Shown here piece by piece: positions 15,232 to 47,465 of a DNA stretch of 64,000 nt. The stretch's first letter is position 1. Each line of letters starts with the position of its first letter. The stretch is from Rhizobium leguminosarum (GTDB lineage: Bacteria > Pseudomonadota > Alphaproteobacteria > Rhizobiales > Rhizobiaceae): contig NZ_CP016293.1 in assembly GCF_001679785.1 (NCBI RefSeq), forward strand, positions 62,001-126,000, given 5' to 3'. The translations under genes were made by a program, and so were the position numbers. The notes below the pieces were generated by a model. The model made no database searches, was not told where the DNA came from, and was given only the letters and a program-made list of their open reading frames with translations.

Positions 15232-15232
15232 A

Positions 15233-18961: not shown

Positions 18962-20791
18962 ATGTATCGCAACGCTCGCCGGTGGACATCACGCTCACTC
19001 CTGCTGGATTCGTTGGTTCCCCGATGGTTGACCGTCGGCGGAAAGGGAAGGCCTCGCAAGCCTGCCGATAAGCGCGAGGATAGTGCTCAACTTGCGACAT
19101 CCGTGCAAACGGCGGATGGAAACAAGCATGATGGTACGCTTGTCGACAATCCCTACAACAACGCGGCGATCAATGAGCATGATGTTGGACAGAGAGCGGG
19201 CGTGATCGGCGACGCAGATGGTCGGGCCGATAGCAACCACCCAGCGCCGCCCTTGCCCGCCCTGCCTAACGCTTTCGCAGCAAATCGCCAGACAGGGGTT
19301 CGAAACGGGGACACTGCCGCGTCTCGGTTGTTCGCCCACACGCCTGGTTTTGCAGGTTTCGAGCGGGACGCGCACGGAGTCGCATTCGGGGCTCGATCGT
19401 CCCTCTATCGCAGCTACGCTGGAATGAGCCTCATAGGCGACGATCCTTTGGCTCCGTATTTGCCGCAAAGCCCTGCACCGAGAGTTTCGGGAGAAGGTTC
19501 TGCCGCGGTGACGGGCGAGCGTGCTCACTCGGGCAACGTCGTCATCCTCGAATCGAGCCCGTCAGCGCAGGCGACTGCGCATCAGACTGGCGCGGATTCA
19601 CTGGCGTTTGGCATGCCCTTTGGTGTGTGCGGATGCGGCTACTTTACCTCCCCCACGCGGATTCTCGATTGGGCCCATGGCGGCGCCATGCTTCAACAGG
19701 ACGGCCAATTGCCGGGCACCAGGCTGACCGAGGGGCCGGACTTTGTATCGACGATCAAGCGGGCCATCAGCGCCTCGGCCAGCGACCCGCTTCTCGATCG
19801 TAATCTGTCCCCTCTCTCGGGCTGGCGCGGAACCGCAACGTGGACGGATTCGACGATCTTGAACGGATCGTTGCCAGGCGGCGGAGAGACCGGAACGGGC
19901 ACCGCCACATCCAAGGGCATCGGCATCCTTTCCGGCTCGGTGACGACGCCACCTTCTACGCAGCGGTCGTTGACGACGCAAAATCTGGCGGCCGCGGCTG
20001 CGGCCAGCAACCTGATCGTGCTGGAAAACCAGAAGCAGGGTAACCCGGAGAGCGAGTGGGGCATCGACGGTGCCGGTAGCTCCAACATCGAGGGATTTGC
20101 GACCGACATCAGCGTCGACAACGGCAAGACGATCAGCTTCAAGATCAATACCAATTCCACCAATTATCGGATCGACATATACCGGCTCGGCTATTATGGC
20201 GGCATGGGCGCCCGCAAGGTCGACACCATTCAGCATACCGGATTGCAGACTCAGCCAAATCCGTTGCGCAACGCCTCGACCGGCACGGTGGATGCCGGCA
20301 ACTGGGCCGTGTCGGCCTCGTGGACTGTACCGGAGGACTCCGTCTCGGGCGTCTATATCGCCAAGCTCGTGCGTCAGGATGGCACCTCCGGCCAAAATCA
20401 TATCCCGTTCATCGTGCGCGACGACGACAGCCGCAGCGACATCGTCTTCCAGACGGCAGACCAGACCTGGCAAGCTTACAACGGTTGGGGTGGGGCAAAC
20501 TTCTATGGCGGCAACGGTCCGGCGACGGGGCAGGGTGCTGGTCGCGCCTATGCGGTCAGCTATAACCGGCCGATTGCGACCCGCGGGGCGTGGGAACCGT
20601 TGCCGGCCCGCAGGATTATCTGTTCGGCGCCGAATATGCGGGCATCTACTGGCTGGAACAGAACGGCTATGACGTCTCCTACCTGTCGGGTGTCGACGCC
20701 GACCGCTATGGCAGCCTGTTGCTCAATCACAAGACCTATGTTGATGCCGGGCATGACGAATACTGGTCTGGACAGCAGCGGACCAATGTAG
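18962..20791 (+). CDS. Giant secreted protein 1, N-terminal part (frame lost near 20586)
   Basis: From ATG 18962 the frame gives about 350 residues of low-complexity, probably disordered sequence without a signal peptide. It then enters an N,N-dimethylformamidase-like domain (LENQKQGNPESEWGIDGAGS, then YRIDIYRLGYYGGMGARKVD, then FQTADQTWQAYNGWGGANFY) that matches giant protein 2 (36782-42121) closely. After YNRPIATRG, near 20586, the frame no longer follows the homologue; the domain continues in the next frame. The last 68 residues (to 20791) are a wrong-frame tail. One additional G in the 20585-20588 run would join both parts into a protein of about 2,350 residues. A sequencing error or a real inactivation are both possible. 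Confidence 0.75.
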   Translation: MYRNARRWTSRSLLLDSLVPRWLTVGGKGRPRKPADKREDSAQLATSVQTADGNKHDGTLVDNPYNNAAINEHDVGQRAGVIGDADGRADSNHPAPPLPALPNAFAANRQTGVRNGDTAASRLFAHTPGFAGFERDAHGVAFGARSSLYRSYAGMSLIGDDPLAPYLPQSPAPRVSGEGSAAVTGERAHSGNVVILESSPSAQATAHQTGADSLAFGMPFGVCGCGYFTSPTRILDWAHGGAMLQQDGQLPGTRLTEGPDFVSTIKRAISASASDPLLDRNLSPLSGWRGTATWTDSTILNGSLPGGGETGTGTATSKGIGILSGSVTTPPSTQRSLTTQNLAAAAAASNLIVLENQKQGNPESEWGIDGAGSSNIEGFATDISVDNGKTISFKINTNSTNYRIDIYRLGYYGGMGARKVDTIQHTGLQTQPNPLRNASTGTVDAGNWAVSASWTVPEDSVSGVYIAKLVRQDGTSGQNHIPFIVRDDDSRSDIVFQTADQTWQAYNGWGGANFYGGNGPATGQGAGRAYAVSYNRPIATRGAWEPLPARRIICSAPNMRASTGWNRTAMTSPTCRVSTPTAMAACCSITRPMLMPGMTNTGLDSSGPM

Positions 20792-23700
20792 AAGCAGCGC
20801 GCGATGCGGGCGTCAACCTGATGTTCTGGAGCGGTAACGAGGTCTATTGGCGCACCCGTTGGGGCAATGCCTATAGCGCCGACGGCACGCCCTATCGCAC
20901 TCTGATCTCCTATAAGGAGACCTGGTCGCCGAGCGCCAGCATCGACCCTTCCAACGAATGGACAGGCACATTCCGTGATCCGCGCCTCAGCCCACCCGCC
21001 ATCGGCGGCGGCAATCCGGAAAACTCGCTGACCGGGCAGCTGTTCCAGGTCGATGATGTCGGCAGCAATCTCCAGGCGATCACTATTCCTTATGACGACG
21101 CCAATCTGCGTTTCTGGCGCAATACGAACGTTGCCAATCTACAGCCTGGCCAGACGGCAACGCTTACCAAGAACTATCTTGGTTACGAATGGGACGAAGC
21201 GGTCGATAACGGCTTCGACCCGGCCGGCCTCGTCAAGCTGTCGTCGACGACGGTTCCGGTCAGCACCTATTTGCTCGACTACGGAAACACGACCGGCAAT
21301 GGGACCTCGACCCACAATCTGACGCTCTATCGTGCGCCCAGCGGTGCATTGGTGTTCGGCGCCGGTACCGTCTACTGGACATGGGGCCTGAGCGACAATC
21401 ACGACCTCACGGCGACTCCGACGGACCCGCGCGTGCAGCAGGCGATGGTCAATCTGCTTGCCGATATGGGCATTCAGCCCGGGACGCTGCAATCCGGGCT
21501 GATCGCCGCGACCGGCTCTACGGACCAGGTTGCTCCGACCTCCGTCATCACCGTACCCGCGACGGCGGCCGTTGGATCCACCGTTACAATTACAGGTACC
21601 GCTGCCGACACGGGCGGCGGGGTCGTCGCCGGTGTCGAAGTTTCCACCGACAACGGGGCGAGCTGGCATCCGGCGACAGGCGATGAGAACTGGACCTATA
21701 GCTGGTCGCCGCAGGTCGCCGGTAGCTACACCATCCGCTCCCGCGCCGTTGACGACAATATCAACCTCGAAACGCCCTCGTCCGGACGTACGGTCACCGT
21801 CAGTGGGCCGAGCTACACGTCTCTCTTCGGTTCGGCGACGCCAGCGGTCGTCAATACAAACGATTCGTCAGCCGTCGAACTCGGGGTCCGCTTCCAAACC
21901 TCTGTGGCAGGGACTGTCAGCGGTGTTCGTTTCTACAAGGGCAGCCAGGATACGGGCACGCACACCGGTTCACTCTGGTCGAGCACCGGCACGCGGCTTG
22001 CGACCCTCACCTTCACCAACGAGACCGCAAGCGGCTGGCAGGCCGCATATTTTTCCAGTCCAGTGGCGTTGACGCCCGGACAGACCTACACGGCGTCGTA
22101 CCACACGAATGCCGGTCGTTACTCGACAACCACCAACTATTTCGTCTCGAACGTAACCAGCGGGCCGCTGACGGCGCCGGCGAGTGGTAATGGCGTGTAC
22201 AGATACGGCAGCACCAGCCTGTACCCTACTGCCAGCTTCAGCTCGACGAATTATTGGGTCGATGTGATGTTCAATCCGTCGGCCTCCAACACGACGCCGA
22301 CGGCAGTTGCCGATGCGGGGGATGCGACTGAGAAGGGTGGCGTGGCCAACGGTTCGGGCGGCGTGGTTGCCAGCGGCAACGTGCTGACCAACGACACCGA
22401 TGCGGATGCCGGTGACACCAAGGCGGTCACGGCGATCCGCTTCGGCGCTACATCAGGTACGCTCGGCACGGCGCTGAATGGCACCTATGGCAGTCTCGTG
22501 CTCAGCGCATCGGGCGTCTATAGCTATGCCGTCAACGAGGCCAATGCTGCCGTGCAGGCGCTGCGGCAGTCGACCAACACGCTGAGCGATGTCTTCAGCT
22601 ATACGATGCGGGATACCGCCGGCGCCACCGCCACGGCAAACCTGACCGTCACCATCCATGGCGCCAACGATGCGCCGGTGCTGGCTGTCCAGACGGCTAG
22701 CCAGAACGCCACCGTCGGCTCTGCCTTCTCGTTCACGCTGCCGACGACGACCTTCACCGATGTCGACAGCGGCGAGACGCTGGCCTATGCGGCAACGTCT
22801 GCCGACGGCACGGCGCTGCCTGCCTGGTTGAGCTTCAATGCCTCGACGAGGACCTTCTCCGGAACGGCGACGACATCAGGTACCTATGGCGTCAGGGTGA
22901 CGGCAACCGACCTTGGCGGCCTCAGCGCCAACGAAACCTTCAACATCGCCGTGTCGACAACACCGAACACGACGCCGACGGCGGTTGCCGATGCGGGGGA
23001 TGCGACCGAGAAGGGTGGCGTGGCCAATGGCTCGGGCGGCGTGGTTGCCAGCGGCAATGTGCTGACCAACGACACCGATGCGGATGCCGGTGACACCAAG
23101 GCGGTCACGGCGATCCGCTTCGGCACCACAACCGGTACGCTCGGCACGGCACTGAACGGCACCTATGGCAGTCTCGTGCTCAGCGCATCGGGCGTCTATA
23201 GCTATGCCGTCAACGAGAGCAATGCTGCCGTGCAGGCGCTGCGGCAGTCGACCAACACGCTGAGCGATGTCTTCAGCTATACGATGCGGGATACCGCCGG
23301 CGCCACCGCCACGGCAAACCTGACCGTCACCATCCATGGCGCCAACGATGCGCCGGTGCTGGCTGTCCAGACGGCCGCCCAGAACGCTACCGTCGGCTCT
23401 GCCTTCTCGTTCACGCTGCCGACGACGACCTTCACCGATGTCGACAGCGGCGAGACGCTGGCCTATGCGGCAACGTCTGCCGACGGCACGGCGCTGCCTG
23501 CCTGGCTCGCCTTCAACGCCACGACGCGGACGTTCAGCGGCACGCCGACGACATCAGGCACCTACGGCGTCAGGGTGACGGCAACCGATCTTGGCGGCCT
23601 TGCCGCCAACGAGACCTTCAATATCACTGCGACAGTGGCGCCTGCGACCTACAGCCTGTTTAACGCCTCCAGCACACCGGCCCAGACGAACCTCAACGAC

Positions 23701-26007
23701 GGTCAGCAGCTCGAGGTCGGCGTCAAGTTCCAGTCGAACGTTATCGGTGATATTACCGCCATCAAGTTCTACCGCAGCGCCAACGACAACGGACAGAACG
23801 TCGTCGATCTGTGGACCACGACAGGCACCAAGCTTGCCACCGCCACCTTCTCCAACACCACGGCAAGCGGCTGGCAGACGGTGAACTTTACAACGCCTGT
23901 CACCATCGCCGCCAACACCACCTATATCGCGTCCTACCACACCACCGGCGCTTACGTGGCAACTAACAATTTCTATACGACCGCCGTCACCAGTGGTCCG
24001 CTGACGGCCCAGTCGAGCGCTGTCGCCGGCGGCAACGGCGTCTATGCCTACGGCGGATCTGCCACCGTAGGCATTTTCCCGAATGCCACCTTCAACGCTG
24101 CCAATTATTGGGCCGATGTGGTCTTCCGTCCGGCATCGACAACACCGAACACGACGCCGACGGCGGTTGCCGATGCGGGGGATGCGACCGAGAAGGGTGG
24201 CGTGGCCAATGGCTCGGGCGGCGTGGTTGCCAGCGGCAATGTGCTGACCAACGACACCGATGCGGATGCCGGTGACACCAAGGCGGTCACGGCGATCCGC
24301 TTCGGCACCACAACCGGTACGCTCGGCACGGCACTGAACGGCACCTATGGCAGTCTCGTGCTCAGCGCATCGGGCGTCTATAGCTATGCCGTCAACGAGA
24401 GCAATGCTGCCGTGCAGGCGCTGCGGCAGTCGACCAACACGCTGAGCGATGTCTTCAGCTATACGATGCGGGATACCGCCGGCGCCACCGCCACGGCAAA
24501 CCTGACCGTCACCATCCATGGCGCCAACGATGCGCCGGTGCTGGCTGTCCAGACGGCTAGCCAGAACGCCACCGTCGGCTCTGCCTTCTCGTTCACGCTG
24601 CCGACGACGACCTTCACCGATGTCGACAGCGGCGAGACGCTGGCCTATGCGGCAACGTCTGCCGACGGCACGGCGCTGCCTGCCTGGTTGAGCTTCAATG
24701 CCTCGACGAGGACCTTCTCCGGAACGGCGACGACATCAGGTACCTATGGCGTCAGGGTGACGGCAACCGACCTTGGCGGCCTCAGCGCCAACGAAACCTT
24801 CAACATCGCCGTGTCGACAACACCGAACACGACGCCGACGGCGGTTGCCGATGCGGGGGATGCGACCGAGAAGGGTGGCGTGGCCAATGGCTCGGGCGGC
24901 GTGGTTGCCAGCGGCAATGTGCTGACCAACGACACCGATGCGGATGCCGGTGACACCAAGGCGGTCACGGCGATCCGCTTCGGCACCACAACCGGTACGC
25001 TCGGCACGGCACTGAACGGCACCTATGGCAGTCTCGTGCTCAGCGCATCGGGCGTCTATAGCTATGCCGTCAACGAGAGCAATGCTGCCGTGCAGGCGCT
25101 GCGGCAGTCGACCAACACGCTGAGCGATGTCTTCAGCTATACGATGCGGGATACCGCCGGCGCCACCGCCACGGCAAACCTGACCGTCACCATCCATGGC
25201 GCCAACGATGCGCCGGTGCTGGCTGTCCAGACGGCCGCCCAGAACGCTACCGTCGGCTCTGCCTTCTCGTTCACGCTGCCGACGACGACCTTCACCGATG
25301 TCGACAGCGGCGAGACGCTGGCCTATGCGGCAACGTCTGCCGACGGCACGGCGCTGCCTGCCTGGCTCGCCTTCAACGCCACGACGCGGACGTTCAGCGG
25401 CACGCCGACGACATCAGGCACCTACGGCGTCAGGGTGACGGCAACCGATCTTGGCGGCCTTGCCGCCAACGAGACCTTCAATATCACTGCGACAGTGGCG
25501 CCTGCGACCTACAGCCTGTTTAACGCCTCCAGCACACCGGCCCAGACGAACCTCAACGACGGTCAGCAGCTCGAGGTCGGCGTCAAGTTCCAGTCGAACG
25601 TTATCGGTGATATTACCGCCATCAAGTTCTACCGCAGCGCCAACGACAACGGACAGAACGTCGTCGATCTGTGGACCACGACAGGCACCAAGCTTGCCAC
25701 CGCCACCTTCTCCAACACCACGGCAAGCGGCTGGCAGACGGTGAACTTTACAACGCCTGTCACCATCGCCGCCAACACCACCTATATCGCGTCCTACCAC
25801 ACCACCGGCGCTTACGTGGCAACTAACGGCTTCTTCACCAACGGCGTCAGCAACGGTCCGCTGTCGGCGCTGTCCAGCGCTGCGGCTGGCGGCAACGGCG
25901 TCTATGCCTACGGCGGATCTGCCACCACAGGTCTCTTCCCGACCAGCACCTTTGACTCGGCAAACTATTATGCCGATGTGGTCTTCCGGCCGCAGCTCGC
26001 AGCTTGA
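20590..26007 (+). CDS. Giant secreted protein 1, main part: dimethylformamidase-like, Ig-like and DUF4082 repeats
   Basis: An 1805-residue frame continuing the protein begun at 18962; its GTG start is artificial. Residues about 1-310 finish the N,N-dimethylformamidase-like catalytic region, with [11 protein letters not shown] and [13 protein letters not shown] conserved in both paralogues (the founding enzyme has a Tyr/Glu-ligated iron). An Ig-like domain (about 317-405) and a first DUF4082 domain (about 407-562) follow. Then come two VCBS plus putative-Ig units, a second DUF4082, two more units and a third DUF4082, in two nearly identical 620-residue blocks. The C-terminus is VVFRPQLAA. No signal peptide is seen; a type I exporter lies at 43882-47465. 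By domain content it is a secreted metal-dependent amidase-like adhesin or matrix protein; the substrate is unknown. Confidence 0.82.
22288..26001 (+). repeat. 1,860-bp tandem duplication inside giant gene 1
   Basis: Bases 22288-24147 and 24148-26001 are near-identical direct repeats with a constant offset of 1,860 bases (for example matching sequence at 23644 and 25504). Each copy holds two related 678-base units plus one DUF4082 domain. Identity breaks down only after about 25828, in the last DUF4082 domain. Such arrays readily expand or contract by recombination, and they can be collapsed in an assembly. Confidence 0.9.
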
Positions 26008-26057
26008 CGCGTCGAACGAGGTTAGAGACGGTTTCGAATGAGGCTTATAAAACGCAA

Positions 26058-27281
26058 ATGACAGTCGCTCCGAATGCCCTCATTCAAGGGATGCCGATAA
26101 ACAGCATCGACCGGCTGCCGGTCACAGTGCTCTCGGGTTTTCTCGGCGCCGGAAAGACGACGCTTCTCAGCCACGTGTTGACCAATCGCGAGGGCCTGCG
26201 GGTCGCCGTCATCGTCAACGATATGAGCGAAGTGAACATAGACGCCAGTCTTATTCGAGACGGCGGCTGTAACCTGTCGCATACGACGGAGACGTTGATC
26301 GAGCTCAGCAATGGCTGCATATGCTGCACCCTGCGCAACGATCTCCTGACGGAAGTGCGGCGACTGGCCGAAGAGGGGCGATACGACTATCTGTTGATAG
26401 AGGGGACCGGCATTGCGGAGCCATGTCCTATCGCGGCAACCTTTTCATTCCGTGACGAGAACGGTGTTTCGCTCTCCGATTTTGCGAAACTCGACACGAT
26501 GGTGACCGTCGTCGACGCCGCAAGCCTCTTGGCCGATTACAGCAGCGCTGATCTGCTTCGCGATCGCGGACTGCAGCGGGACGGTGACGACCGGCGCACA
26601 CTCATCGACTTGTTGGTCGACCAGATCGAGTTTGCCGATATTGTCGTGATCAACAAGATCTCGGATGCGACCGAAGAGGTCCGCGCGGAAGTCCGCAAGA
26701 CGGTGGCTGCACTCAACCCGGATGCCCGCCAGGTGGAGACGGACTTCGGCAAGGTTTCTCTTGCAACCGTCCTCGACACGGGCCTCTTCGATGAAGCAAA
26801 AGCCGCCGCTCACCCGTTGTGGCACAAGGAACTGTACAATCCGGGCGACCATGTTCCGGAGACGGAGGAATACGGGGTATCGAGCTTTGTCTATCGCGCG
26901 AGACGTCCCTTCGACCCCAAGCGGTTTCGAGCATTCCTGGACGAGCCCTGGCCGGGGGTAATCCGCGCCAAAGGCCATTTCTGGCTTGCCACGCGCCCGC
27001 GTCACGTGGGTTTGATGTCGGCTGCCGGGGTACAACGGCGCTGTGAACCTATGGGGCTCTGGTGGGCAGCCGTTCCCCGACAAGACTGGCCCAGCCATCA
27101 ACAGTTTCGTCAGCATCTCGAGAGTCGATGGGACAGCGCTTGGGGCGACCGTCGGCAGGAGCTCGTGTTCATCGGTGTGGACATGGACGAGACAGGTGTC
27201 CGCACCGCGTTGGACGACTGCCTGGCCAGCTCGGACCCGCGGGACTGGTCGGCTCTCGAAGATCCGTTTCCGGCCTGGTAG
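26058..27281 (+). CDS. CobW/COG0523 G3E-family GTPase, copy 1
   Basis: A SIMIBI GTPase of about 408 residues. Walker A is [16 protein letters not shown], the metal-binding CxCC motif lies in [14 protein letters not shown], and EGTGIAEP and VVINKISD complete the G3E signature. CobW_C follows after about residue 265 ([20 protein letters not shown]). COG0523 proteins insert or store Zn, Co or Fe in client proteins in a GTP-dependent way. The gene begins about 50 bases after giant gene 1, and an identical pairing occurs for copy 2, so the client may be the giant protein's metal site. Start uncertain: 26058 or 26091. Closely similar to the copy at 42170. Confidence 0.88.
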
Positions 27282-27430
27282 CACGGGACGCGGGAGTACC
27301 GGTGCGTGTTTCACTAATTTCGGGACAGCGATTCCGCTAATTCCGGGACAGTCTCGGACGTGGATTTAAGGTCGATTTTCGCAAGCGCCGTTCTGGCAGA
27401 TTGCCTCCTCATCATCGGTTGAGAGGGGCC

Positions 27431-28984
27431 ATGCCAAGACGGAAGCAAGCGAGACGAACGACAGTGAAAGACATTCGATCGATACTGCGACTGACGCACG
27501 AGCAGGGCCTTTCGGTTCGCGCCGTTTCGGAACGCCTGAAGATCAGCAAAACCTCTGTGGCGACGTATCTGTTGCGAGCGAGGGAGACCGGACTTTCGGT
27601 CTGGCCGTTGCCTGCGGGCCTGGACGATGATGCCGCGCTGGAGCGACATCTTTTCCGGCGCGTTGGCCGGCCGCCACAGGACTTGGTCGAGCCGGATTGG
27701 CGGTCCGTTTCCGCCGAGCTGAAGCGCAAGGGTGTAACGCTGACGCTGCTCTGGCAGGAATACAGGGCGAGCCATCCCGACGGCTACGGCTACACATGGT
27801 TTTGCGACCGTTTTGCCGTCTTCGAACGCCGCGCTCACGCGACGTTCCGCAACCGTCATGAGGCGGGCGCGGTGATGCAGACGGATTATGCCGGCCACAC
27901 CATCCCCATCATCGACCCTTCGACCGGCGTCATCCATTCGGCACAAATCTTTGTGGCGATGCTTCCCGCCTCGTCGTTGACATTCGCCTGTGCCAGCTTC
28001 AGCCAGAAACTGCCGGACTGGATCGAGGGCCAGGAACGCGCGCTGAGCTTCTTCGGCGGCGTCACGAAGGCGATCGTGTGCGACAACCTGAAGGCAGGCG
28101 TCGCCAAGGCGCTGTGGTTCGAGCCGACGCTCAACGCCACCTTCGCTGCTATGGCCGAACATTACGATACGACCATCCTGCCGACCAGAAGCCGCAAGCC
28201 GCGTGACAAAGCCAAGGTCGAAGGTGCAGTGCTGATCGTCGAGCGCTGGATATTGGCTCGCCTCAGAAACCGACGCTTCTTCAGTCTGGCTGATCTGAAT
28301 GCCGCGATCTCGGTTCTGCTTGACGACTTGAACAACCGCCCGATGCGCCACATCGGAAAGTCGCGCCGAGACCTGTTCGAGGAGGTAGAGAGAAAGGCGC
28401 TTGCGCCGCTGCCAGCAACGCCGTTCGACTATGCGGAATGGAAATCGGCGAAGGTCCATCCCGATTACCATGTCGAGGTCGACAAGACCTTCTACTCTGT
28501 GCCGCACCGCTTGATCGGCCGACAGGTTGATGTGCGTCTGACCCACCGGGTGGTCGAGGTATTTCTCGATCACAAGCGGATTGCCAGCCATATCAGGCGT
28601 TCTCAGCGATCCGGGCATGTGACGGTCAACGAGCATATGCCCAAATCCCACCAGCGTTATGCCAACACGACGCCGGCATCGCTTTTGAACCAGGCGGCAA
28701 GGATCGGGGTGAACACCGCCATTCTGGTCGAGCGGATGATGCGCGATCGTCCTCATCCCGAACAAGGATATCGCTCGGCCTTCGGCATTCTGTCCCTTGC
28801 CCGCCGTTACGAGACGGATCGCCTGGAAGCGGCGTGCGAGCGGGCGCTGGTCATCAACTCCATCACCTATTCCTCTGTCGCCGCCATTCTCAAATCCGGT
28901 CTCGATCGAACCAAACCCCAGACAGACCCGGCAAAACCCACCCCGCCGCACACCAACATCCGCGGCGGCTCCTATTACCAGTGA
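27431..28984 (+). CDS. istA: IS21 transposase IstA
   Basis: A 517-residue DDE transposase. An N-terminal helix-turn-helix ([20 protein letters not shown]) is followed by the rve integrase core: [37 protein letters not shown] and [20 protein letters not shown] give the D, D and E residues. The C-terminal part ([20 protein letters not shown]) is the family's Mu-type beta domain. ATG 27431 follows GAGAGGGG. It works with IstB directly downstream. Confidence 0.93.
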
Positions 28985-29000
28985 AGGAAAGGAAAGACCC

Positions 29001-29777: not shown

Positions 29778-29944
29778 CTTCAACCAGGCAGGCGAAAATC
29801 GACCACACCATGCTGTCCCGGAATTAGTGAAACCACTGTCCGCGATTTAGTGAAACGACTGTCCCGTTCTTCCGAAATACGCAAGTACCGGCTCGACCGG
29901 CCGGACCGGCGAGACAATACCGAACTAGTACCACGCCACAGAGA

Positions 29945-31060: not shown

Positions 31061-31088
31061 CGACACCTCCTTCAGCGTGGAGACGCAG

Positions 31089-31373: not shown

Positions 31374-31421
31374 GACAAACCGTCATAATCTCTGTGGCGT
31401 GGTACTAGCCCGCATCTCTCA

Positions 31422-36619: not shown

Positions 36620-36841
36620 CTAGAATTCCTCTTCACCCAGAGTCGGCCGCTGAGCAGTAGCCGGAGGCAGCTTTGCGGCCTTGTCGGTCGGGTATGCGGT
36701 GAGGGTCATCATATCGGAGTACGGAGTATCACCCACATACCCCAGATTGCTGTCGTACATTCCCATACGAAAGCTGGCAGGATGAAGCCTTCCAATGTCG
36801 GTCGACGGGAAACGGGGACGCCACTCTTGCTCAGATTTCAT
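36620..36841 (-). CDS. Small protein or gene fragment of unknown function
   Basis: A 73-residue frame (MKSEQEWRPRFPSTDIGRLH, with GYVGDTPYSDMMTLTAYPTD and ending GEEEF) whose composition looks protein-like rather than random. I do not recognise it. Its stop codon lies at the IS1380 border, so it may be the remnant of a longer gene truncated by that insertion. It overlaps the uncertain 5' end of giant gene 2 on the other strand, so both cannot be right in full. No good ribosome-binding site is seen. Confidence 0.3.
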   Translation of the reverse strand: MKSEQEWRPRFPSTDIGRLHPASFRMGMYDSNLGYVGDTPYSDMMTLTAYPTDKAAKLPPATAQRPTLGEEEF

Positions 36842-39800: not shown

Positions 39801-42121
39801 TGATCATCGGCCACAACGGAACGCTTGTTATCTCGATTGCCGCACTCGTCGCAAATGATGTCGATGCCAATGGCGATGCGCTGACCATCACCGCCGTTGG
39901 CAATGCCCTCAACGGCACGGTTGCTCTCAACACGCAGACCGGAACCATCACCTTCACGCCGGCTAATAACTATTCAGGCCCGGCAAGCTTCGCCTACACG
40001 CTGTCGGACGGGCGCGGCGGTACGGATCAGGGCAATGTCAGCCTCACCGTTCAGGCCGCTCCGGCCGGCGAGACGCTGTTTACGGGAAGCGAGGGGCCGA
40101 CCGGCGGCAGCTTCAACGACAATACGGCGATGGAACTCGGCATGAAGTTCGTCGCTTCCTCAAACGGCACGATCTCGGGCATCCGCTATTACAAGGCTGC
40201 CGGCGATACCAGCGTGCATACCGGCTCCATCTGGAGGGCCGACGGCACGCTCGTCGCCACGGTCACCTTCACCAACGAGTCGCTCTCCGGGTGGCAGACG
40301 GCAACCTTCTCCACGCCGCTGCAGATCACGGCGGGTGCGACCTATGTCGCCTCCTACCACACGACCGGCAGCTATGTGGCGACCGCAGGCTATTTCAACA
40401 CGGCTCATACCAACGGCTCGCTGACGGCGCTGGCCGGCACGAACGGCGTCTATGCGGTCGGATCGGGCTCGACCTTCCCGACCCAGAGCTACCAGTCGTC
40501 GAATTACTGGGTCGATGTCGTCTTCAACCAGTCGACGGGCAATACGGTGCCGGTTGCCGCCAACGACAACGGCTACACGACCTATGCCAACACAGCCCTG
40601 TCGATTGCCGCTGCCAACCTGCTTGCCAATGACAGCGATGGCGATGGCGACCCGCTGAGCATTACCGGCGCAAATGGCGCGGTCAACGGAACGGTGACGT
40701 ATAACAGCCAGACCAACACGGTGATCTTCACGCCGAACTCAGGCTATACCGGCGTCGCAAGCTTTTCCTATTCGATCTCGGACGGGCAAGGCGGCACGGC
40801 TTCGGCCACCGTCAGCCTCACGGTCAATTCGCAGCCCGGCGGCGGCACGACCTCGAGCCTGTTTACCAGCGCCGACACGTCGGGGGTTACCGCCGCCAAT
40901 GATGCCAACTCGGTCGAACTTGGCGTCAAGTTCATCGCTTCCGCCAACGGCCAGATCACGGGGCTCACCTATTACAAGAGCGCTCAGGATACCGGCACGC
41001 ATGTCGGCTCGCTCTGGACCACGAACGGCCAGCTCCTTGGCCAGGCAACCTTCATCAACGAGACGGCAAGCGGCTGGCAGACGGTTTCGTTCACGCAGCC
41101 GATCAATGTCACGGCCGGCGTTACCTATGTGGCGAGCTACCATTCCAACGGCTTCTATTCGGCAACCGCGAATTACTTCACGACAGACTATACGAGCGGC
41201 GCGCTGACGGCGCCGGCAAGTTCGGTCAGCGGCGGCAACGGCGTCTATGCCTATGGCACGGTCAGCCTGTTCCCGACCGCCTCCTACAATGCCAGCAATT
41301 ACTGGGTGGACGTGCTCTATCAGCAGGGCGCTCAGAATGCGGTTCCGGTCGCAGCCAATGACAGCGGCTACTCGACCAATACGGGCACGCCGATCACCAT
41401 CCAGGCCTCGGCGCTGCTTTCAAACGACAGCGATGCCGATGGCGATCCACTCACGATCACCGGTGTCAGCGGCGCCGTCAACGGCTCGGTCGCCTACAAT
41501 GCCCAGGCCCAGACGGTGACCTTCACGCCGACCGCAGGCTATTCGGGACCGGCGAGCTTCAGCTACGCGATATCAGACGGCAAGGGCGGCACGGCCACGG
41601 CCCAGGTTGCGCTCACCATCAACAACCCGGCTGCAGGCCCGGAGCAGAACCTCTTTGCCGCCAATGCGATGCCTGCAATCGTCTCCACCAACGACAATCA
41701 GCAGGTCAATCTCGGCATGAAGTTCCAGGCCGATACTGCAGGCTGGATCACCGGCATCCGCTTCCACAAGGGCACCGACAATACAGGCCCGCACAACGGC
41801 TATCTCTGGACTGCCTCGGGCACGCTGCTCGGCAGCGTCGCCTTCAGCAACGAAACGGCAAGCGGCTGGCAGACCGCGACACTCACCCAGCAGGTGGAGG
41901 TCGCCGCGGACACGACCTACGTCGTTTCCTACAGCACCAACGGCAATTATTCGGCGACCGGCAACTACTTCAGCGCCGATGTGACGAATGGCGACCTCAG
42001 GGCGCTCAGCGGCAGCAACGGCGTCTATGCCTATGGCTCGAGCGGGCTGTTCCCCAGCGCCAGCTATAACAGCACAAACTACTATGTGGACGTAGCATTC
42101 AGACCGCAGCTCGCGGCGTAA
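36782..42121 (+). CDS. Giant secreted protein 2: dimethylformamidase-like, Ig-like, cadherin-like and DUF4082 domains
   Basis: About 1780 residues, paralogous to giant protein 1. A Ser/Thr/Ala-rich N-terminus of about 225 residues without a signal peptide precedes the N,N-dimethylformamidase-like region ([73 protein letters not shown]) to about residue 740. An Ig-like domain follows, then four DUF4082 domains (about 840, 1097, 1358, 1620) alternating with three cadherin-like domains (DALTITAVGNALNGTVALNT, SFAYTLSDGRGG). The end is VAFRPQLAA, as in protein 1. The frame is open back to 36473 inside the IS1380 element. ATG 36782 is a guess; GTG 36842 or ATG 37047 are alternatives, and the true 5' end may be lost. 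Probably exported by the transporter at 43882-47465. Confidence 0.82.
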   Translation: MKPSNVGRRETGTPLLLRFHVRNREYLSTAGGTPSVCHPPSVWTALLGTATVVSSSTQGPYGFANQGSATVQSSFSGTVTSSLISSGDMQSPASSTAMPARARDSGAQDGFTKTASAATVFQTPSSTSQRTVLAPDPSEEAATLPAAPALTGVTTDADTGSTKTAPPVSSSSSLGTTSLRLQASIASISLEPSQDVSAETTAAPTALGALAAPVAPMAAVSAAATPNKIALENLKQGNPISEWGLEGDGGGTIQGFATEISTNIGQTVDFKIATDSTHYRIDIYRIGYYGGAGARKVDSIEQSLTSAQIQPHPIVDMSLGLIDCGNWSVSASWQIPDDAVSGVYFAKLVREDGTEDASIIPFVVRDDASTSDIVFQTSDTTWQAYNAWGGASLYYGEVPVDPADMIGYLPPNCSCGLTAIGRASAVSYNRPIITNTSPIGGPHDFVFGVESSAIQWLEQNGYDVSYISGVDATRSGSLLLNHDAYLSVGHDEYWSAEQRANVEAARDAGVNLAFWSGNECYWKVRWESSIDGSGQAYRTMVCYKETWGTSTDPSATGTGTWRDPRYADPGQEPENSLTGTMFQVDSYRSDTITIPYDYSNLRFWRNTDVAELEEGETYNLVQNLLGYEWDSDVENGFRPDGLINLSLSSIAVSTYLRDYGTTVGDAVATHSLTMYRAESGALVFGAGTVFWSWGLNANHQGAQTPTDPNVQQAMVNMFADMGIQPTTLDASLILATQSTDALKPTSSISSPIIGASFVEGQRVTITGTAQDFGGGIIAGVEVSTDGGQHWFKATGRESWSYNWVVQASGTYTILSRAVDDSVNLEAPSAGKQVTVTLPGTQGLWTLAEKPAVETAIDRDPVELGLRFQATTAGSVQGIRFYKGFYNTGDHVVSLWSGNGTLLATGVSVGESLSGWQTVMFSSPIQIAAGTTYVASYHSNGFFSVTENYFSEPYASGALKAVDGGGVFAYSGTSTFPGQSPGGSNYWVDVVFDAGPNSQPVATDDSGLIIGHNGTLVISIAALVANDVDANGDALTITAVGNALNGTVALNTQTGTITFTPANNYSGPASFAYTLSDGRGGTDQGNVSLTVQAAPAGETLFTGSEGPTGGSFNDNTAMELGMKFVASSNGTISGIRYYKAAGDTSVHTGSIWRADGTLVATVTFTNESLSGWQTATFSTPLQITAGATYVASYHTTGSYVATAGYFNTAHTNGSLTALAGTNGVYAVGSGSTFPTQSYQSSNYWVDVVFNQSTGNTVPVAANDNGYTTYANTALSIAAANLLANDSDGDGDPLSITGANGAVNGTVTYNSQTNTVIFTPNSGYTGVASFSYSISDGQGGTASATVSLTVNSQPGGGTTSSLFTSADTSGVTAANDANSVELGVKFIASANGQITGLTYYKSAQDTGTHVGSLWTTNGQLLGQATFINETASGWQTVSFTQPINVTAGVTYVASYHSNGFYSATANYFTTDYTSGALTAPASSVSGGNGVYAYGTVSLFPTASYNASNYWVDVLYQQGAQNAVPVAANDSGYSTNTGTPITIQASALLSNDSDADGDPLTITGVSGAVNGSVAYNAQAQTVTFTPTAGYSGPASFSYAISDGKGGTATAQVALTINNPAAGPEQNLFAANAMPAIVSTNDNQQVNLGMKFQADTAGWITGIRFHKGTDNTGPHNGYLWTASGTLLGSVAFSNETASGWQTATLTQQVEVAADTTYVVSYSTNGNYSATGNYFSADVTNGDLRALSGSNGVYAYGSSGLFPSASYNSTNYYVDVAFRPQLAA

Positions 42122-42169
42122 AGCCCGCGAGCATGTAAGGCCAAGCATCTGTAAAGGGTAATGAGATCG

Positions 42170-43402
42170 ATGATGGGTGCAGACAACAGATTGCCGGTAA
42201 CGGTTCTCGCCGGGTTTCTCGGCGCCGGCAAGACGACTGTCCTCAATCATGTCCTGAGCAATCGTGAGGGTCGCCGGGTTGCTGTCATCGTCAACGATAT
42301 GAGCGAGGTCAACATCGATGCGGATCTCGTGCGCGAGGGGGGTGCAGACCTCTTGCGCACGGACGAGACGCTGGTAGAGCTCACCAATGGATGCATCTGT
42401 TGCACTCTGCGCGACGATCTCCTGAGCGAGGTCCGCCGGCTCGCTAGCGCCGGCCGCTTCGACTATCTGCTGATCGAGGGCACCGGCATTGCCGAGCCGC
42501 TGCCGGTCGCAGCCACCTTCTCCTTCCGCGACGAGAGCGGGGCAGCACTCTGCGATGTCGCGCGGCTCGACACCATGGTTTCCGTCGTCGATGCGGTCAA
42601 TCTTCTCGCCGATTACCAGAGTGCCGAGTTCCTTGCCGATCGCGGCGAAAGGCGTGACGGGGACGATGAGCGCAAGCTCGTCGAACTCCTCGTCGAGCAG
42701 ATCGAATTTTCCGACGTCGTCATCATCAATAAGGCAGGCGATGTGCCGCCCGCAATGCTGTCGGAGGTTCGCCGGGTCGTCGCGGCGCTCAATCCGGATG
42801 CCCGCATCATCGAGGCGGCCTTCGGTCAGGTGCCGCTTGGCGCGATCATGGATACCGGGCTCTTCAGCGAGGCGAAGGCCGCCCGCCATCCGTTCTGGCA
42901 CAAGGAGCTTTACGGCTGGGGCGACCACGTGCCGGAGACCGAGGAATACGGCATTGCGAGCTTCGTCTATCGCAGCCGCCGGCCTTTCGATCCCGCACGG
43001 CTGAGCCGCGTGATCGAGCAGCCATTACCCGGCATCATCAGGGCGAAAGGGCATTTCTGGCTGGCGACCCGGCCGGACGAGATCGGCCTGTTGTCGATTG
43101 CCGGCACGCAATGCCGCATCGAGAACAGGGGGTTCTGGTGGGCCTCGGTGCCGCGGGCGCACTGGCCGCGCCATCCGCAATTCCGCCAGTTGCTTGACCG
43201 GCATTGGGATGACGTCTGGGGCGACCGTCGTCAGGAGCTGGTCTTCATCGGCTCCGGCTTCGACGAGGCGGCGATCCGTGCTGCGCTCGACGATTGCCTG
43301 GCCGGGGAGGAGACGGGTTTCGATCCGCAGACCGCCATCGGCCTTCGCGATCCGTTTCCGGCATGGCGGCACGATACTCACGCATCGGACCGAAAAGTGT
43401 GA
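42170..43402 (+). CDS. CobW/COG0523 G3E-family GTPase, copy 2
   Basis: A 410-residue paralogue of the GTPase at 26058, again directly behind a giant DUF4082 protein. Walker A ([16 protein letters not shown]), CxCC ([14 protein letters not shown]), EGTGIAEP and VIINKAGD are all present, as is the C-terminal [20 protein letters not shown] segment. The last residues after FPAW ([11 protein letters not shown]) are encoded by a palindromic repeat at 43383-43425 that has replaced the original stop; copy 1 stops right after FPAW. Starts at 42161, 42170 and 42173 are in frame; 42170 has AAGGG at 11 bases. Likely role as for copy 1: supplying metal to a secreted client. Confidence 0.88.
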
Positions 43403-43475: not shown

Positions 43476-43784
43476 ATGAGCAACGAACTTTATGCAGATG
43501 GCATCGGCGAGATCACAATCACGGGAACGATCGTGCGCATCGACCTGATGTCGCTCTCGGCCACCGATCGTGACGCCAACAACAATCCGAAGCCGGTCTT
43601 CCGCCAGCGCATCATCATGCCGATCGATGCCTTCGCCAATGCGGTCGATCTCATGCAGAAGGCGCTTGGCGGGTTGGTCGAGGCGGGTGCGGTCCGTCGC
43701 ATCGGCGATATGCCAGCTGCGGCGGCTGCCGATATCCAGACGGTGCAGGCCGGCGCTTCGAACGCCTCGCCGAACTTCAACTGA
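43476..43784 (+). CDS. Small protein of unknown function between CobW and the type I exporter
   Basis: A 102-residue soluble protein (MSNELYADGIGEITITGTIV, then PVFRQRIIMPIDAFANAVDL, then a Ala-rich tail). A strong AGAGGAGAG precedes ATG 43476. The pattern of beta strands, an 'RIIMPIDAF' strand-turn and a helix loosely resembles DUF3467-type small proteins, but I do not recognise it with confidence. Its position between the GTPase and the secretion transporter suggests a role in the same process, for example as an export or assembly factor; that is inference. Confidence 0.7.
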   Translation: MSNELYADGIGEITITGTIVRIDLMSLSATDRDANNNPKPVFRQRIIMPIDAFANAVDLMQKALGGLVEAGAVRRIGDMPAAAAADIQTVQAGASNASPNFN

Positions 43785-43881: not shown

Positions 43882-46026
43882 ATGAGTGGTTTTCTGCATA
43901 CCAACCTGCACTGTCTTGCGCTCGTCGCGCGTCATCACGGCGTCGATCTTGCTCCTGAACGACTGCAGCACGATTATGCCGTCGGCAACGATCCCGTTGC
44001 CATGCGGCAGCTGCTGCGTATGGCCAAGGATGCCGGCCTCAGGGCAAGGCATCTGACGCTCGACTGGCGATCCCTGTTCCAACTCGGCGAGGCCTTCCCG
44101 GTGCTCGCCGAGCTGACGAACGGCAACTGGGTGGTCATCGCCGGCGCTGTCGGGAGCGGGGAGGATGAGAGAATCCGCGTTCTCGACCCGCTGGCATCAC
44201 GCGCCGAGGTGATGATGCTCAGCGAAGAGCAGTTCGCAAAGGCCTGGCTCGGATCGGTGATCCTGCTGAAGCGCAACTATCGCATGTCCGATGAGGACCG
44301 GCCCTTCGGCTTCCGCTGGTTTGTCCCCGAGATCATCAAGCAGCGCAGCTTCTTCCGCGACGTCGCGCTCGCCGCCTTCGTGCTCTACGGGCTGGGCCTG
44401 ACGACGCCGATCTTCTTTCAGCTCGTCATCGACAAGGTGCTGGTGCATCAGAGCTATGCGACGCTGACGGTTTTGACGGCGGGCATTGCGATCGCGCTCG
44501 TCTTCGACGCGACGTTCACCTTCCTGCGCCGCTATCTGCTGCTTTATGCGACAAACAGGATCGATATTCGCGTCGCGACTCGCACCTTCGGCCATCTGCT
44601 CAACCTGCCGATCGCGCTCTTCGAACAGGCCTCGGCCGGCGTTCTCGTCAAGCACATGCAGCAGACCGGGCGCATCCGCGAATTCCTGACCGGCCGGCTG
44701 TTTCTCACGCTCTTAGACGGCGTTTCGCTGCTGGTCTTCGTGCCGATCCTGCTTCTCTACAGCGTCAAACTGACGCTTGTCGTGCTCGGTTTCGCCGCCC
44801 TTGTCGGGCTCGTGGTGATGATGCTCGTCGGGCCGTTCCAGCGCCGGTTGCAGGCGCTCTACCAAGCCGAAGGCGACCGGCAGGCATTGCTGGTGGAAAC
44901 CGTGCACGGCATGCGCACCGTCAAATCGCTGGCGTTGGAGCCGCGCCAGCGCAAGGTGTGGGACGATTATTCGGCGCAGGCGATCTCCGTGCGTTTCCGC
45001 GTCGACAAGATCTCGACCATCGCCCAGGCGATGACCGGACTGCTGGAGAAGCTGATGAGCGTCGCGATCATCGGCCTCGGCGCGCTCGATGTCTTCAGCG
45101 GCGCGATGACGATCGGCGCGCTGGTCGCCTTCAACATGCTCGCCGGCCGGGTCTCGGGACCACTGGTGCAGATCGTCACCATGGTGCACGAATATCAGGA
45201 AGTCGCGCTCTCCGTGCGCATGCTCGGCGAGATCATGAACCAGCGGCCGGAGCAGGCGGGCCGCGGGCGAGGTGTTCGGCCGCATCTGCAGGGCCGCATC
45301 GAATTCGACAGGGTCAGCTTCCGTTACGGCCCGGATAGCGCGCCGGCGCTCGACAATGTCTCCTTCGCCATTCCGGCGGGCTGCCTCTTCGGCGTGGTCG
45401 GTAAGAGTGGCTCGGGCAAGACGACGATCACAAGGCTCATCCAGGGACTCTATCAGAGCCAGGAAGGCCTCGTGCGCATGGATGGCTATGACAGCCGCGA
45501 GATCGACCTCGTGCATCTGAGAACGAGCATCGGCGTCGTGCTGCAGGACAGTTTCCTGTTTCGCGGCTCGGTGCGCGAGAATATTGCCGCCGCCAAGCCC
45601 GATGCCAGCATCGAGGAAATCATGGAAGTCGCCCGCATTGCCGGCGCCGAGGAGTTCATCGAGCGCCTGCCGCGCGGCTTTGACACGATGCTGGAGGAAA
45701 ACGCCTCCAACCTGTCAGGCGGCCAGAGGCAGCGGCTTGCCATTGCCCGCGCGCTGATCACCGATCCGAAGCTGTTGATCTTCGACGAGGCGACGAGTGC
45801 GCTCGACCCTGACAGCGAGGCGATCATCCGCGAGAATCTGAGCCGCATCGCTGCCGGCCGCACCGTCATCATCGTCTCGCACCGACTTTCGACGCTCGTC
45901 GATGCCGATGCCATTCTCGTCATCGAGCGTGGCAAGGTCGCCGATATCGGCCGGCACGATCAGCTTGTATCGCGCTGCATGACCTATCGTCACCTGTGGT
46001 CCCAGCAGATGAGGCAGGTCGCATGA
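43882..46026 (+). CDS. Type I secretion ABC transporter (HlyB/PrtD-like with inactive C39-like domain)
   Basis: A 714-residue inner-membrane exporter. Residues 1-130 form a C39-peptidase-like domain (MSGFLHTNLHCLALVARHHG) in which Thr replaces the catalytic Cys, as in HlyB, where the domain holds unfolded substrate instead of cutting it. Six membrane segments occupy about 155-420 (PIFFQLVIDKVLVHQSYATL). The ATPase domain has VGKSGSGKTTITRLIQG, the LSGGQRQRLAIARAL signature, LLIFDEATSALD and the H-loop SHRLSTL. With the HlyD-like protein it should export unfolded proteins lacking signal peptides; the giant proteins upstream are obvious candidates. A TolC partner is not in view. Confidence 0.92.
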   Translation: MSGFLHTNLHCLALVARHHGVDLAPERLQHDYAVGNDPVAMRQLLRMAKDAGLRARHLTLDWRSLFQLGEAFPVLAELTNGNWVVIAGAVGSGEDERIRVLDPLASRAEVMMLSEEQFAKAWLGSVILLKRNYRMSDEDRPFGFRWFVPEIIKQRSFFRDVALAAFVLYGLGLTTPIFFQLVIDKVLVHQSYATLTVLTAGIAIALVFDATFTFLRRYLLLYATNRIDIRVATRTFGHLLNLPIALFEQASAGVLVKHMQQTGRIREFLTGRLFLTLLDGVSLLVFVPILLLYSVKLTLVVLGFAALVGLVVMMLVGPFQRRLQALYQAEGDRQALLVETVHGMRTVKSLALEPRQRKVWDDYSAQAISVRFRVDKISTIAQAMTGLLEKLMSVAIIGLGALDVFSGAMTIGALVAFNMLAGRVSGPLVQIVTMVHEYQEVALSVRMLGEIMNQRPEQAGRGRGVRPHLQGRIEFDRVSFRYGPDSAPALDNVSFAIPAGCLFGVVGKSGSGKTTITRLIQGLYQSQEGLVRMDGYDSREIDLVHLRTSIGVVLQDSFLFRGSVRENIAAAKPDASIEEIMEVARIAGAEEFIERLPRGFDTMLEENASNLSGGQRQRLAIARALITDPKLLIFDEATSALDPDSEAIIRENLSRIAAGRTVIIVSHRLSTLVDADAILVIERGKVADIGRHDQLVSRCMTYRHLWSQQMRQVA

Positions 46027-47465
46027 ACCCGCATACCAGAAAACCCAGCGAAAACCTGCCTGTTCCGTCAGGCAAAGGCCCTTCAGACAAGGGGCCCTCG
46101 GGGAAGGGCAGGGAGCTTGTCGCCCGCCCGCCGTTGCCGCCGGCAATTGCCGAATTCCAGTCCGACGCCGTCGAGCTCGAGGAGCGCGCGCCGCCGCGCA
46201 TTGCACGGATGACGCTCTACTGCGTGACGGCGCTGATTGTTTCGGCGATCATCTGGGCCTCGGTCTCGTCGATCGATGAGGTGGTGATTGCGCCCGGCAA
46301 GCTCGTCACCACCCAACCGACCATCGTCGTCCAGCCGCTCGAAACCTCGATCATCCGCACGATCGAGGTGAAGGCCGGGGAAGTGGTGCATGCCGGGCAG
46401 ACGCTCGCGACCCTCGACGCCACGTTCAGCCAGGCCGATGTCGACCAGCAGCAGGCGAAGTTCTCCGCCCTCGACGCCCAGGTGAGGCGCATCGAGGCCG
46501 AGCTTGCCGGCGACGACTACACGAAGATGGCGGGAGATACGCCCGACCAGGTGCTGCAGGCGCAGCTCTTCGGCCAGCGACAGGCCTTCTACATGGCGCA
46601 GCTGCAGAATTTCGAGCAGCAGATCGCCGGCCAGTCGGCCGCTCTTGCGGCAAGCAGGAACCAGGAGGCCGTGCTCAACGACAGGCGCGATGGGCTCTCG
46701 CAGATCGAGGCAGCGCGGGAGCGGCTCTATGACAAGCAGAGCGGCTCGCTGATCACGCTGCTGGGCTCGCGTGACGCCCGCCTCGACGTCGAGTCCGACC
46801 TGACCGCTGTCCGCGGGCGGGCCGACGAGGCCGCCCACGCCTATGCCAAGCTCCGAGCCGACCGCCAGGCCTTCATCGAGGATTTCCGCCGCGCCGCAAT
46901 GGAGCAGCTGGTGGAATTGCGCGGCCAGCGCGACATGGCTGACGAGGAGCTGAAAAAGATGGAACTGCGCCGCAACATGGTGGCGCTGACCGCACCCGCC
47001 GATGCCGTCGTCCTCGATCTCGCCCAGCGCTCGGTCGGTTCAGTGGTGCGCGAGGCGGAACCGGTCGTGACGCTGGTGCCGATCAACGTGCCGCTCGAAG
47101 CCGAAGTCTCGATCAACACCCGCGACATCGGCCGCGTGGCCGTCGGCAAGGAAGCCCGCATCAAGCTCGACGCCTATCCCTTCCAGAAATACGGCACCGC
47201 CTCGGGCGAGGTGAGAACCATCAGCCAGGACACCTTCCTCACCGGCCAACAGGAGCAGACAGAGACCCCGAGCCAGCCGGCCGCCCCCTTCTTCAAGGCG
47301 CGGATCCTGCTTGCCGATACCCGGCTGAATGCCGCAGGTATGCCGGTGCGGCTGCTTCCCGGCATGACCGTGTCCACGGAAATCAAGGTCGGCAAACGTA
47401 CGGTGATCTCCTATTTCCTGTATCCGCTGCTGCGTGGCCTCGATAACGCAATACGCGAACCGTAA
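46023..47465 (+). CDS. HlyD-family membrane fusion protein of the type I exporter
   Basis: A 480-residue periplasmic adaptor: a cytoplasmic tail, one membrane segment (YCVTALIVSAIIWASVSSID, about residues 68-87), a lipoyl-like half (PGKLVTTQPTIVVQPLETSI), a long coiled coil (about 140-330, e.g. QLQNFEQQIAGQSAALAASR), the second lipoyl half (PADAVVLDLAQRSVGSVVRE) and a beta-barrel domain to GMTVSTEIKVGKRTVISYFL. The last motif is the HlyD family signature. It overlaps the transporter gene by four bases, so both subunits are translationally coupled. Confidence 0.92.
   Translation: MNPHTRKPSENLPVPSGKGPSDKGPSGKGRELVARPPLPPAIAEFQSDAVELEERAPPRIARMTLYCVTALIVSAIIWASVSSIDEVVIAPGKLVTTQPTIVVQPLETSIIRTIEVKAGEVVHAGQTLATLDATFSQADVDQQQAKFSALDAQVRRIEAELAGDDYTKMAGDTPDQVLQAQLFGQRQAFYMAQLQNFEQQIAGQSAALAASRNQEAVLNDRRDGLSQIEAARERLYDKQSGSLITLLGSRDARLDVESDLTAVRGRADEAAHAYAKLRADRQAFIEDFRRAAMEQLVELRGQRDMADEELKKMELRRNMVALTAPADAVVLDLAQRSVGSVVREAEPVVTLVPINVPLEAEVSINTRDIGRVAVGKEARIKLDAYPFQKYGTASGEVRTISQDTFLTGQQEQTETPSQPAAPFFKARILLADTRLNAAGMPVRLLPGMTVSTEIKVGKRTVISYFLYPLLRGLDNAIREP

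Follow-up and report, generated by a model that had tools for sequence, protein, structure and literature searches.

A duplicated giant protein/COG0523 GTPase module beside a type I exporter in Rhizobium leguminosarum, and a CxCG motif that accompanies GTPase linkage

The module and its products

We analysed a window of 64,000 nucleotides of Rhizobium leguminosarum (bases 62001-126000 of the 275-kb contig NZ_CP016293.1, in a genome totalling 8.57 Mb), and all coordinates were counted from its position 1. The window contains a duplicated module in which a gene for a giant protein of about 180 kDa, with a region resembling N,N-dimethylformamidase (DMFase), is followed by a gene for a GTPase of the COG0523 (CobW) group; the second copy runs on into genes for a 102-residue protein, a HlyB-type ABC exporter and a HlyD family adaptor (Table 1). 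The duplication and the linked HlyB/HlyD pair are real and far beyond chance. A preliminary description of this DNA had reported two giants with a DMFase-like region, the motifs GHDEYWS and FWSGNE, DUF4082 domains and Ig-like domains, each with its own GTPase directly behind it, and these features were found where it had placed them: PF20254 (DMFA2_C) and Ig/cadherin-like matches in the giants, a CobW/COG0523 match behind both copies and, behind the second, the small protein, an ABC protein of the HlyB type that has a C39 domain, and HlyD. Copy 1, however, is not the single protein that was described, since in the window strain DMFA2_C is split near 20.6 kb between two frames that overlap at 20590-20791 (a mutation or an assembly error), while relatives have one intact frame.

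The closest DNA to the module was found on plasmids of the Rhizobium leguminosarum complex. The DNA of copy 1 was matched by 105 plasmid records, 104 of them from Rhizobium and 92 with a coverage of at least 80%. Plasmid pRL9 of R. johnstonii 3841 and Rhizobium sp. SU303 carry the same genes in the order polysaccharide export gene (on the opposite strand), giant 1, GTPase 1, giant 2, GTPase 2, 102-residue protein, ABC, HlyD. The system had been thought to lack any description, but Krehenbrink and Downie in 2008 (PMC2275737) had already named the orthologous giants pRL90159 and pRL90161 of strain 3841, with their repeated 140-residue motifs (DUF4082) upstream of bltDE, as likely type I substrates of the exporter BltDE and as bacteriocin-like; PMC10925705 repeats this account. 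(Statements drawn from PMC2275737, PMC10925705, PMC9164220, PMC10642216 and PMC11026475 refer to excerpts of these papers.) The text of PMC2275737 never mentions a GTPase, cobW, formamidase, or pRL90160, pRL90162 or pRL90163, which by position would be the numbers of the two GTPase genes and the small gene, and its excerpts do not describe the inactive C39-like domain, the C-terminal tail or the CxCG motif that are treated below.

Table 1. Features of the module in the window
Feature	Position	Strand	Basis or remark
Giant 1, first fragment: CxCG-bearing N-terminal linker and initial third of DMFA2_C, after which the frame is lost	18962..20791	+	intact counterpart L004:21209-27709
CGCG motif of giant 1 (VCGCGYF)	19628..19639	+	same motif in linked relatives
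Giant 1, second fragment: remainder of DMFA2_C, 3 DUF4082, repeats of the VCBS, cadherin and He_PIG kinds, FRPQLAA at the C-terminus	20590..26007	+	domain matches
C-terminal heptapeptide FRPQLAA of giant 1	25984..26004	+	conserved in relatives
GTPase 1 (CobW1), ZigA-like COG0523, CxCC motif	26004..27281	+	profile match
Inserted block, not part of the module	27303..36619		separates GTPase 1 from giant 2; carries transposase genes and a group II intron
Giant 2: DMFA2_C, 4 DUF4082, cadherin/Ig-like	36782..42121	+	start from SU303 annotation; open frame begins at 36473
QAYN of giant 2; Tyr = DMFase Fe ligand Y399	37928..37939	+	alignment
GGASLY of giant 2; last Tyr = DMFase Fe ligand Y440	37946..37963	+	alignment
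CSCG motif of giant 2, about 20 residues past second Tyr ligand	38018..38029	+	same motif in linked relatives
GHDEYWS of giant 2; His = DMFase H519, Glu = Fe ligand E521	38246..38266	+	alignment
C-terminal heptapeptide FRPQLAA of giant 2	42098..42118	+	conserved in relatives
GTPase 2 (CobW2), ZigA-like COG0523	42161..43402	+	profile match
102-residue accessory protein, conserved SPNFN C-terminus	43476..43784	+	no Pfam or NCBIfam family
ABC exporter of HlyB type, its C39-like domain inactive (BltD; pRL90164 in 3841)	43882..46026	+	profile match, HlyB alignment
HlyD family adaptor (BltE, pRL90165 in strain 3841)	45996..47465	+	profile match

Giant 2 matched PF20254 with 345 bits against a cut-off of 27. 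The domains of the giants suggest surface or matrix proteins. Neither an obvious Sec signal nor, in domain profile searches, an RTX family was found in the giants of the window module; RTX repeats are not obligatory in all type I substrates. The N-termini of giant 2-type proteins (window 36782 on, L042, L043, L045, L053 and L055) begin with a short conserved motif such as LRFHVRNREYLS or IRFNPAQHDYVS, followed by a low-complexity linker.

The DMFase-like region is homologous to the large subunit of N,N-dimethylformamidase (6lvb, PMC7686228) and to N-acetyl-(R)-beta-phenylalanine acylase (8i5a), from which the giants differ in the fusion of the domain to adhesin-like repeats and in its predicted export. 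The iron ligands Y399, Y440 and E521 of DMFase and the nearby histidine aligned in 24 of 24 sequences in both alignment modes, the equivalence of Y440 depending on the alignment across a gap. By this comparison the giants keep the intact two-Tyr/one-Glu iron site of the DMFase family, as the preliminary description had expected of the Tyr/Glu ligands, and amidase activity and bound iron are predicted.

Linkage of the GTPase and the CxCG motif

The metal ligands were as intact in relatives without a linked GTPase as in those with one, and they were therefore ruled out as an explanation of the presence of the GTPase. This also suggests that the GTPase may serve a different element of the giants, a CxCG tag, rather than the enzyme site. 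When the cysteines of 30 DMFA proteins were read, each of the 21 GTPase-linked giants contained one CxCG, while the other nine contained no CxC of any kind; shuffling gave an expectation of 0.0135 of 21. The 21 include close relatives, and one of them (G661_c1) was taken as linked across the ends of its contig. In the named loci, which were read after the idea arose, CxCG was present in 73 of 75 giants, one being cut by a contig end (73 of 74 fully read) and one (L133) having CxC followed by alanine; these 73 share at least five genomes with the set of 21 (3841, G765, G661, G567 and G480).

The position of the tag differs with the type of giant. In giant 1 and the giants of family f3 it belongs to the N-terminal linker (VCGCGYF or ICGCGYF); in giant 2 it occupies a loop of the DMFA region, about 20 residues past the second Tyr ligand (PPNC[SGN]CG), and in G625 a different loop (YCHCGQ). 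Giant 1 types have no cysteines other than this pair from 250 residues before the DMFA region onward.

The motif was absent from all 61 unlinked DMFA proteins (9 + 26 + 2 + 10 + 14), of which 19 are DUF4082 giants. The pair in this sum consists of two giant 1 types without an adjacent GTPase (L188 and L190), from whose alignment the CGCG segment is missing, and the ten are new f3 giants without an adjacent GTPase, on which the absence of CxCG had been predicted and was found in 10 of 10. The 14 come from 19 unlinked loci read at a known match, none with CxCG; this count leaves out L026 and L028 (wrong frame) and L059, L061 and L066, which repeat L025, L031 and L030. CxC without the glycine was seen in L060 and L076. 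For loci L006-L034 a GTPase was sought only within 1.5 kb, and L068 has a remote COG0523 match (33%) within its 20-kb stretch. The samples are phylogenetically clustered and partly self-chosen, and the unlinked counts mix close and remote relatives. Within these samples the correlation between CxCG and GTPase linkage is shown, and it is a new finding. Among the ten f3 giants that lack a linked GTPase, six (L239-L244) have in common an N-terminal four-cysteine element, PCGSCTGRACT[VI]CS, possibly a self-sufficient replacement of CxCG.

An earlier candidate, that the GTPase tracks the export route, was supported by the first self-chosen sample (14 with GTPase and type I system, 1 with the type I system only, 1 with GTPase only and 5 with neither; Fisher p 0.0017). 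It was overturned by the f3 sample, in which 10 of 13 genomes have the giant and the small protein without a linked GTPase; the link to the export route was therefore dropped, and CxCG, not the route, is the correlate.

The GTPases themselves match ZigA (NF038288) over their full length, with 564 and 568 bits, below the cut-off of 600. By profile they are closest to ZigA, in the zinc branch, though just under its cut-off. Walker A and CxCC were present in 129 of 129 module GTPases, which in a tree of 86 of 149 sequences (after thinning) formed one clade of 68 of 69 rows with support of 100/97, only the long-branched G625 falling outside. The type of giant paired with the type of GTPase in 91 of 93 cases, a further 36 GTPases having no DMFA in place. 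A mirror-tree comparison of GTPase and DMFA distances gave r 0.49, a value reached in 0 of 1000 permutations; it includes mis-paired loci with giant 1 off the contig, and the pairing table is preferred. When 80 genomes were searched, 58 GTPases matched at E values up to 1e-130, and 19 of these adjoin a DMFA giant.

A ZigA-like paralogue on the 5-Mb contig of the genome adjoins znuA (ZnuA by Pfam), and similar genes lie beside znuA, by sequence, in four further genomes of the genus. A Zur-box-like palindrome of the GTTATAnnATAAC kind was found in eight of nine non-module loci (nine of the 20 fetched were scanned), five of the eight being identical in sequence, and a simple pattern scan found it in none of nine module loci. 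The locus L159 (G000:C1:2330000-2338000), with a ZigA-like gene beside znuA and this palindrome, provides a natural control for the module GTPases. The latter share with ZigA the full-length match, Walker A and CxCC, and differ from it in the score, the missing palindrome, the separate clade and the tie to a protein predicted to be exported. They also resemble Nha3, the activator of Fe-type nitrile hydratase (PMC9164220), in being COG0523 GTPases tied to one amide- or nitrile-acting iron enzyme; the client of Nha3 is, however, nitrile hydratase, whereas that of the module would be a giant predicted to be exported, and the branch of COG0523 is a different one.

The exporter, the C-terminal tail and the small protein

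The ABC protein aligned with HlyB nearly end to end. Its best NCBIfam model was the HlyB subfamily TIGR01846 (675.8 bits, below the cut-off of 725.55), which makes it HlyB-like but not a member of the subfamily, while the HlyD adaptor exceeded the cut-off of TIGR01843 (319.4 against 208.65 bits). In the C39-like domain, the position aligned with the catalytic cysteine was Thr in 96 of 96 ABC matches, and that aligned with the catalytic histidine was Trp in 94, Cys in 1 and Ser in 1, and never His. Both positions were located through the HlyB alignment, and we take them to be the catalytic ones. HlyB-like C39-like domains of this kind bind unfolded substrate (PMC11026475). The system resembles type I secretion of the CLD class in its ABC protein with a C39-like domain devoid of peptidase residues and in its HlyD adaptor, a C-terminal signal being what one would expect, and differs in that the giants lack RTX repeats and the operon adds a small protein and a GTPase.

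The sequence QL, as in [RK]PQLAA, followed the last DUF4082 strand in 105 of 105 C-termini in the named loci and in 0 of 212 internal domain ends. Ten of ten further f3 giants end in [PA]QL and two residues, and distant exporter-linked relatives keep QL or something similar (PQLSA, PQIAA, THLTA, PTLAA or PLAA), whereas the C-termini of G479, G522, G632, G550 and G625, all without the small protein, differ from this tail. On these comparisons we propose the F[RK]PQLAA-like tail as the export signal, a candidate for the uncleaved C-terminal signal of this class.

Relatives of the 102-residue protein were sought by a pattern scan of one genome per species in 84,980 species, which gave 128, mostly in Rhizobiaceae among the best 80 that were kept. 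In these best 80 of 128 loci a GTPase match lay upstream and an ABC gene downstream in 80 of 80, and a DMFA giant lay upstream in 74. One of the upstream GTPase matches is a 69-residue remnant (L140), with no giant nearby and a DUF4082 frame elsewhere in its genome. Among the six exceptions without an upstream giant, L143 and L152 are short or cut loci, and L120, L122 and L129 have DUF4082 giants elsewhere in the genome. Behind three of the five giants read in those genomes (L187, L189 and L191) lies another copy of the small gene, with no ABC gene, and L237 is a fourth such case. A conserved Hint_2-domain protein (Pfam, L120) lies after HlyD where the giant is not adjacent (L120:14169-15002, L122:12594-13523 and L129:14167-15000).

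Of 44 neighbourhoods, which we chose ourselves and which include controls, 12 showed the complete order giant, GTPase, small protein, ABC, HlyD, and one of the 12 belongs to another order of the class; the expected adjacency of giant and COG0523 in other genomes and the linked type I exporter were thus both found. The small protein was present with the giant in 10 of 10 f3 genomes tested. In a sample of the class, 19 of 385 genomes had a relative, most of the remote ones without an exporter within 1.5 kb. Two remote genomes in which no DUF4082 matched (G112 and G194) carry small, ABC and HlyD-like genes; the stretch fetched contains neither a GTPase nor a giant. In one of these (L218, G194) the homologue, with a similar SPNF tail, lies among response-regulator-like genes near an exporter. 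The HlyD-like proteins of two remote small-ABC systems (L216:5787-7592 and L218:14042-15946) bear an N-terminal cyclic-nucleotide-binding domain by Pfam.

Around the module, the window strain has an inserted block of about 9.3 kb that splits the operon and is missing from SU303 and 3841. It carries three transposase genes (one DDE_3, two DDE_Tnp_1_4) and a group II intron with a reverse transcriptase, and giant 2 starts about 160 bases further on. An open frame of 562 residues without a Pfam match lies at its edge (27314-29002, minus strand). Polysaccharide biosynthesis and export genes at 9629-18297 of the window adjoin the module in Rhizobium, by the SU303 annotation, and polysaccharide genes, recognised by sequence, surround the small-ABC-HlyD genes in L192-L194 of family f3.

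A possible secretion operon with a GTPase partner

We read the module, tentatively and a little short of an even judgement, as a dedicated type I secretion operon for the giants, with a GTPase partner acting via CxCG. The giant would join a DMFase-family amidohydrolase domain to Ig/cadherin-like spacers and lectin-like DUF4082 domains, as a matrix or surface protein. Its export by the HlyB/HlyD pair of the module is quite probable: the HlyB-type ABC protein would read the F[RK]PQLAA tail as an export signal and hold the unfolded chain by its catalytically dead C39-like domain, and HlyD with an unlinked TolC, a predicted partner, would complete the channel. The 102-residue protein goes with the exporter and the substrate in the module, from which we infer a role as export escort or adaptor; that it is an export accessory of some kind is rather more likely than not.

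The preliminary description proposed a secreted metalloenzyme-adhesin system with a GTPase that would load metal, or guard the metal pool, before export. The adjacency, the ligands and the exporter stand, but loading before export conflicts with the unfolded state in which type I substrates cross the exporter (PMC11026475), and the GTPase could not usefully fill a folded Tyr/Tyr/Glu site beforehand. Unfolded passage is better matched by CxCG as a short chelate or docking tag, for a local Cys-x-Cys chelate could survive such transport and a folded Tyr/Glu site could not. The ZigA-like GTPase would act on the giant in the cytosol via CxCG before export, either passing metal to the motif or taking stray metal from it, using its own CxCC site, so that CxCG could be charged, or kept empty, before export. 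Action of the GTPase through CxCG, which supposes a contact between the two, is marginally favoured by these comparisons. Direct transfer of zinc from CxCC to a client has been proposed for ZNG1 (PMC10642216) and delivery of iron for Nha3 (PMC9164220); here the branch of the GTPase suggests zinc and the family of the enzyme suggests iron. It is doubtful that the metal of the GTPase ends in the DMFase-like site, and still less likely that the GTPase charges CxCG as a portable chelate, with which the metal would cross the exporter on the unfolded chain to be given to the Tyr/Tyr/Glu site once it has folded outside.

Several observations weigh against this reading. L187, L189 and L191 carry CxCG without an adjacent GTPase, though a GTPase lies beside the exporter elsewhere in the same genomes. 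The unlinked comparison is weak insofar as 42 of the 61 do not count as DUF4082 giants and are remote DMFA proteins, and the linked set is clustered, the independent events amounting to three placements and one joint loss. The place of CxCG varies between giants and nowhere coincides with a known iron ligand. The ten f3 genomes that have the giant and the small protein without a linked GTPase (10 of 13) keep the ligands and the tail, and five of these ten have no ZigA-like GTPase at E values up to 1e-60; G650 is a further case in which the exporter set and the metal site do not need a GTPase. The branch of the GTPase is that of zinc and DMFase is an iron enzyme. The small protein, for which a SecB-like fold was considered, had no convincing fold match, and a bltD mutation in strain 3841 did not change the supernatant profile (PMC2275737).

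That last result also bears on whether the giants leave the cell by another system such as PrsDE, the neighbourhood of BltDE being historical. The preliminary description had named secretion unaffected by loss of the exporter as speaking against its proposal, and this was partly borne out: the supernatant of the bltD mutant was unchanged, although the giants are not among the bands identified there (PMC2275737). The giants found elsewhere in the genome in L120, L122 and L129 would agree with a separate route. The small protein and the tail, however, stay with the giant and the exporter in distant genomes, and the small protein accompanies the giant throughout the f3 genomes tested; conversely G479, with a Sec-type N-terminus, lacks the small protein, an adjacent exporter and the tail, and G604, also with a Sec-type N-terminus, has no small protein (its tail is off the contig). 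We consider export by another system quite unlikely. The proposal of 2008 that BltDE exports a bacteriocin-like product and that the giants are bacteriocin-like, made from likeness to the Rzc exporters (PMC2275737), is very improbable: the C39-like domain has neither the catalytic cysteine nor the histidine and, being dead, fits HlyB-type secretion better than bacteriocin export; the best NCBIfam model is that of HlyB (676 bits), even if under its cut-off; and the domains of the giants suggest surface or matrix proteins.

The GTPase might instead be a paralogue of ZigA in general zinc homeostasis, carried along in the operon since zinc limitation calls for both, and having no specific client in the giant. 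ZigA is the closest named family and the paralogue on the 5-Mb contig adjoins znuA, but the Zur-box-like palindrome separates non-module from module loci (8 of 9 against 0 of 9), and the module GTPases form their own clade, pair with giant types and track CxCG; this explanation appears unlikely. Another alternative is a function of the CxCG motif as a redox or folding element, for example as a disulfide made outside the cell, which the GTPase would keep metal-free, reduced and export-competent, by stripping rather than delivery. The unfolded passage of type I substrates (PMC11026475), the solitary cysteine pair of giant 1 types and the intact ligands in proteins without a GTPase, whose site thus needs no delivery, would all suit it; the characterised COG0523 proteins Nha3 and ZNG1, in contrast, are thought to deliver metal (PMC9164220 and PMC10642216), and we regard stripping as rather unlikely.

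The literature search found no work linking COG0523 with type I secretion, and the terms 'formamid', 'type I secretion' and HlyD do not occur in the COG0523 survey PMC2770081. A second search gave, among the matches listed, none that dealt with a CxCG motif or with type I secretion. In many of the sequence clusters of COG0523 no member has been characterised (PMC9164220). For these GTPases, our sequence comparison provides a candidate client class and a candidate client motif, which were upheld by a separate genome set, in a system of rhizobia that is workable in the laboratory. The small protein, in addition, is a candidate accessory of an HlyB-type exporter. The module raises the question of how a metalloenzyme gets its metal when the export route demands an unfolded chain, and it hints at a new way of metal handling for a protein that leaves the cell unfolded.

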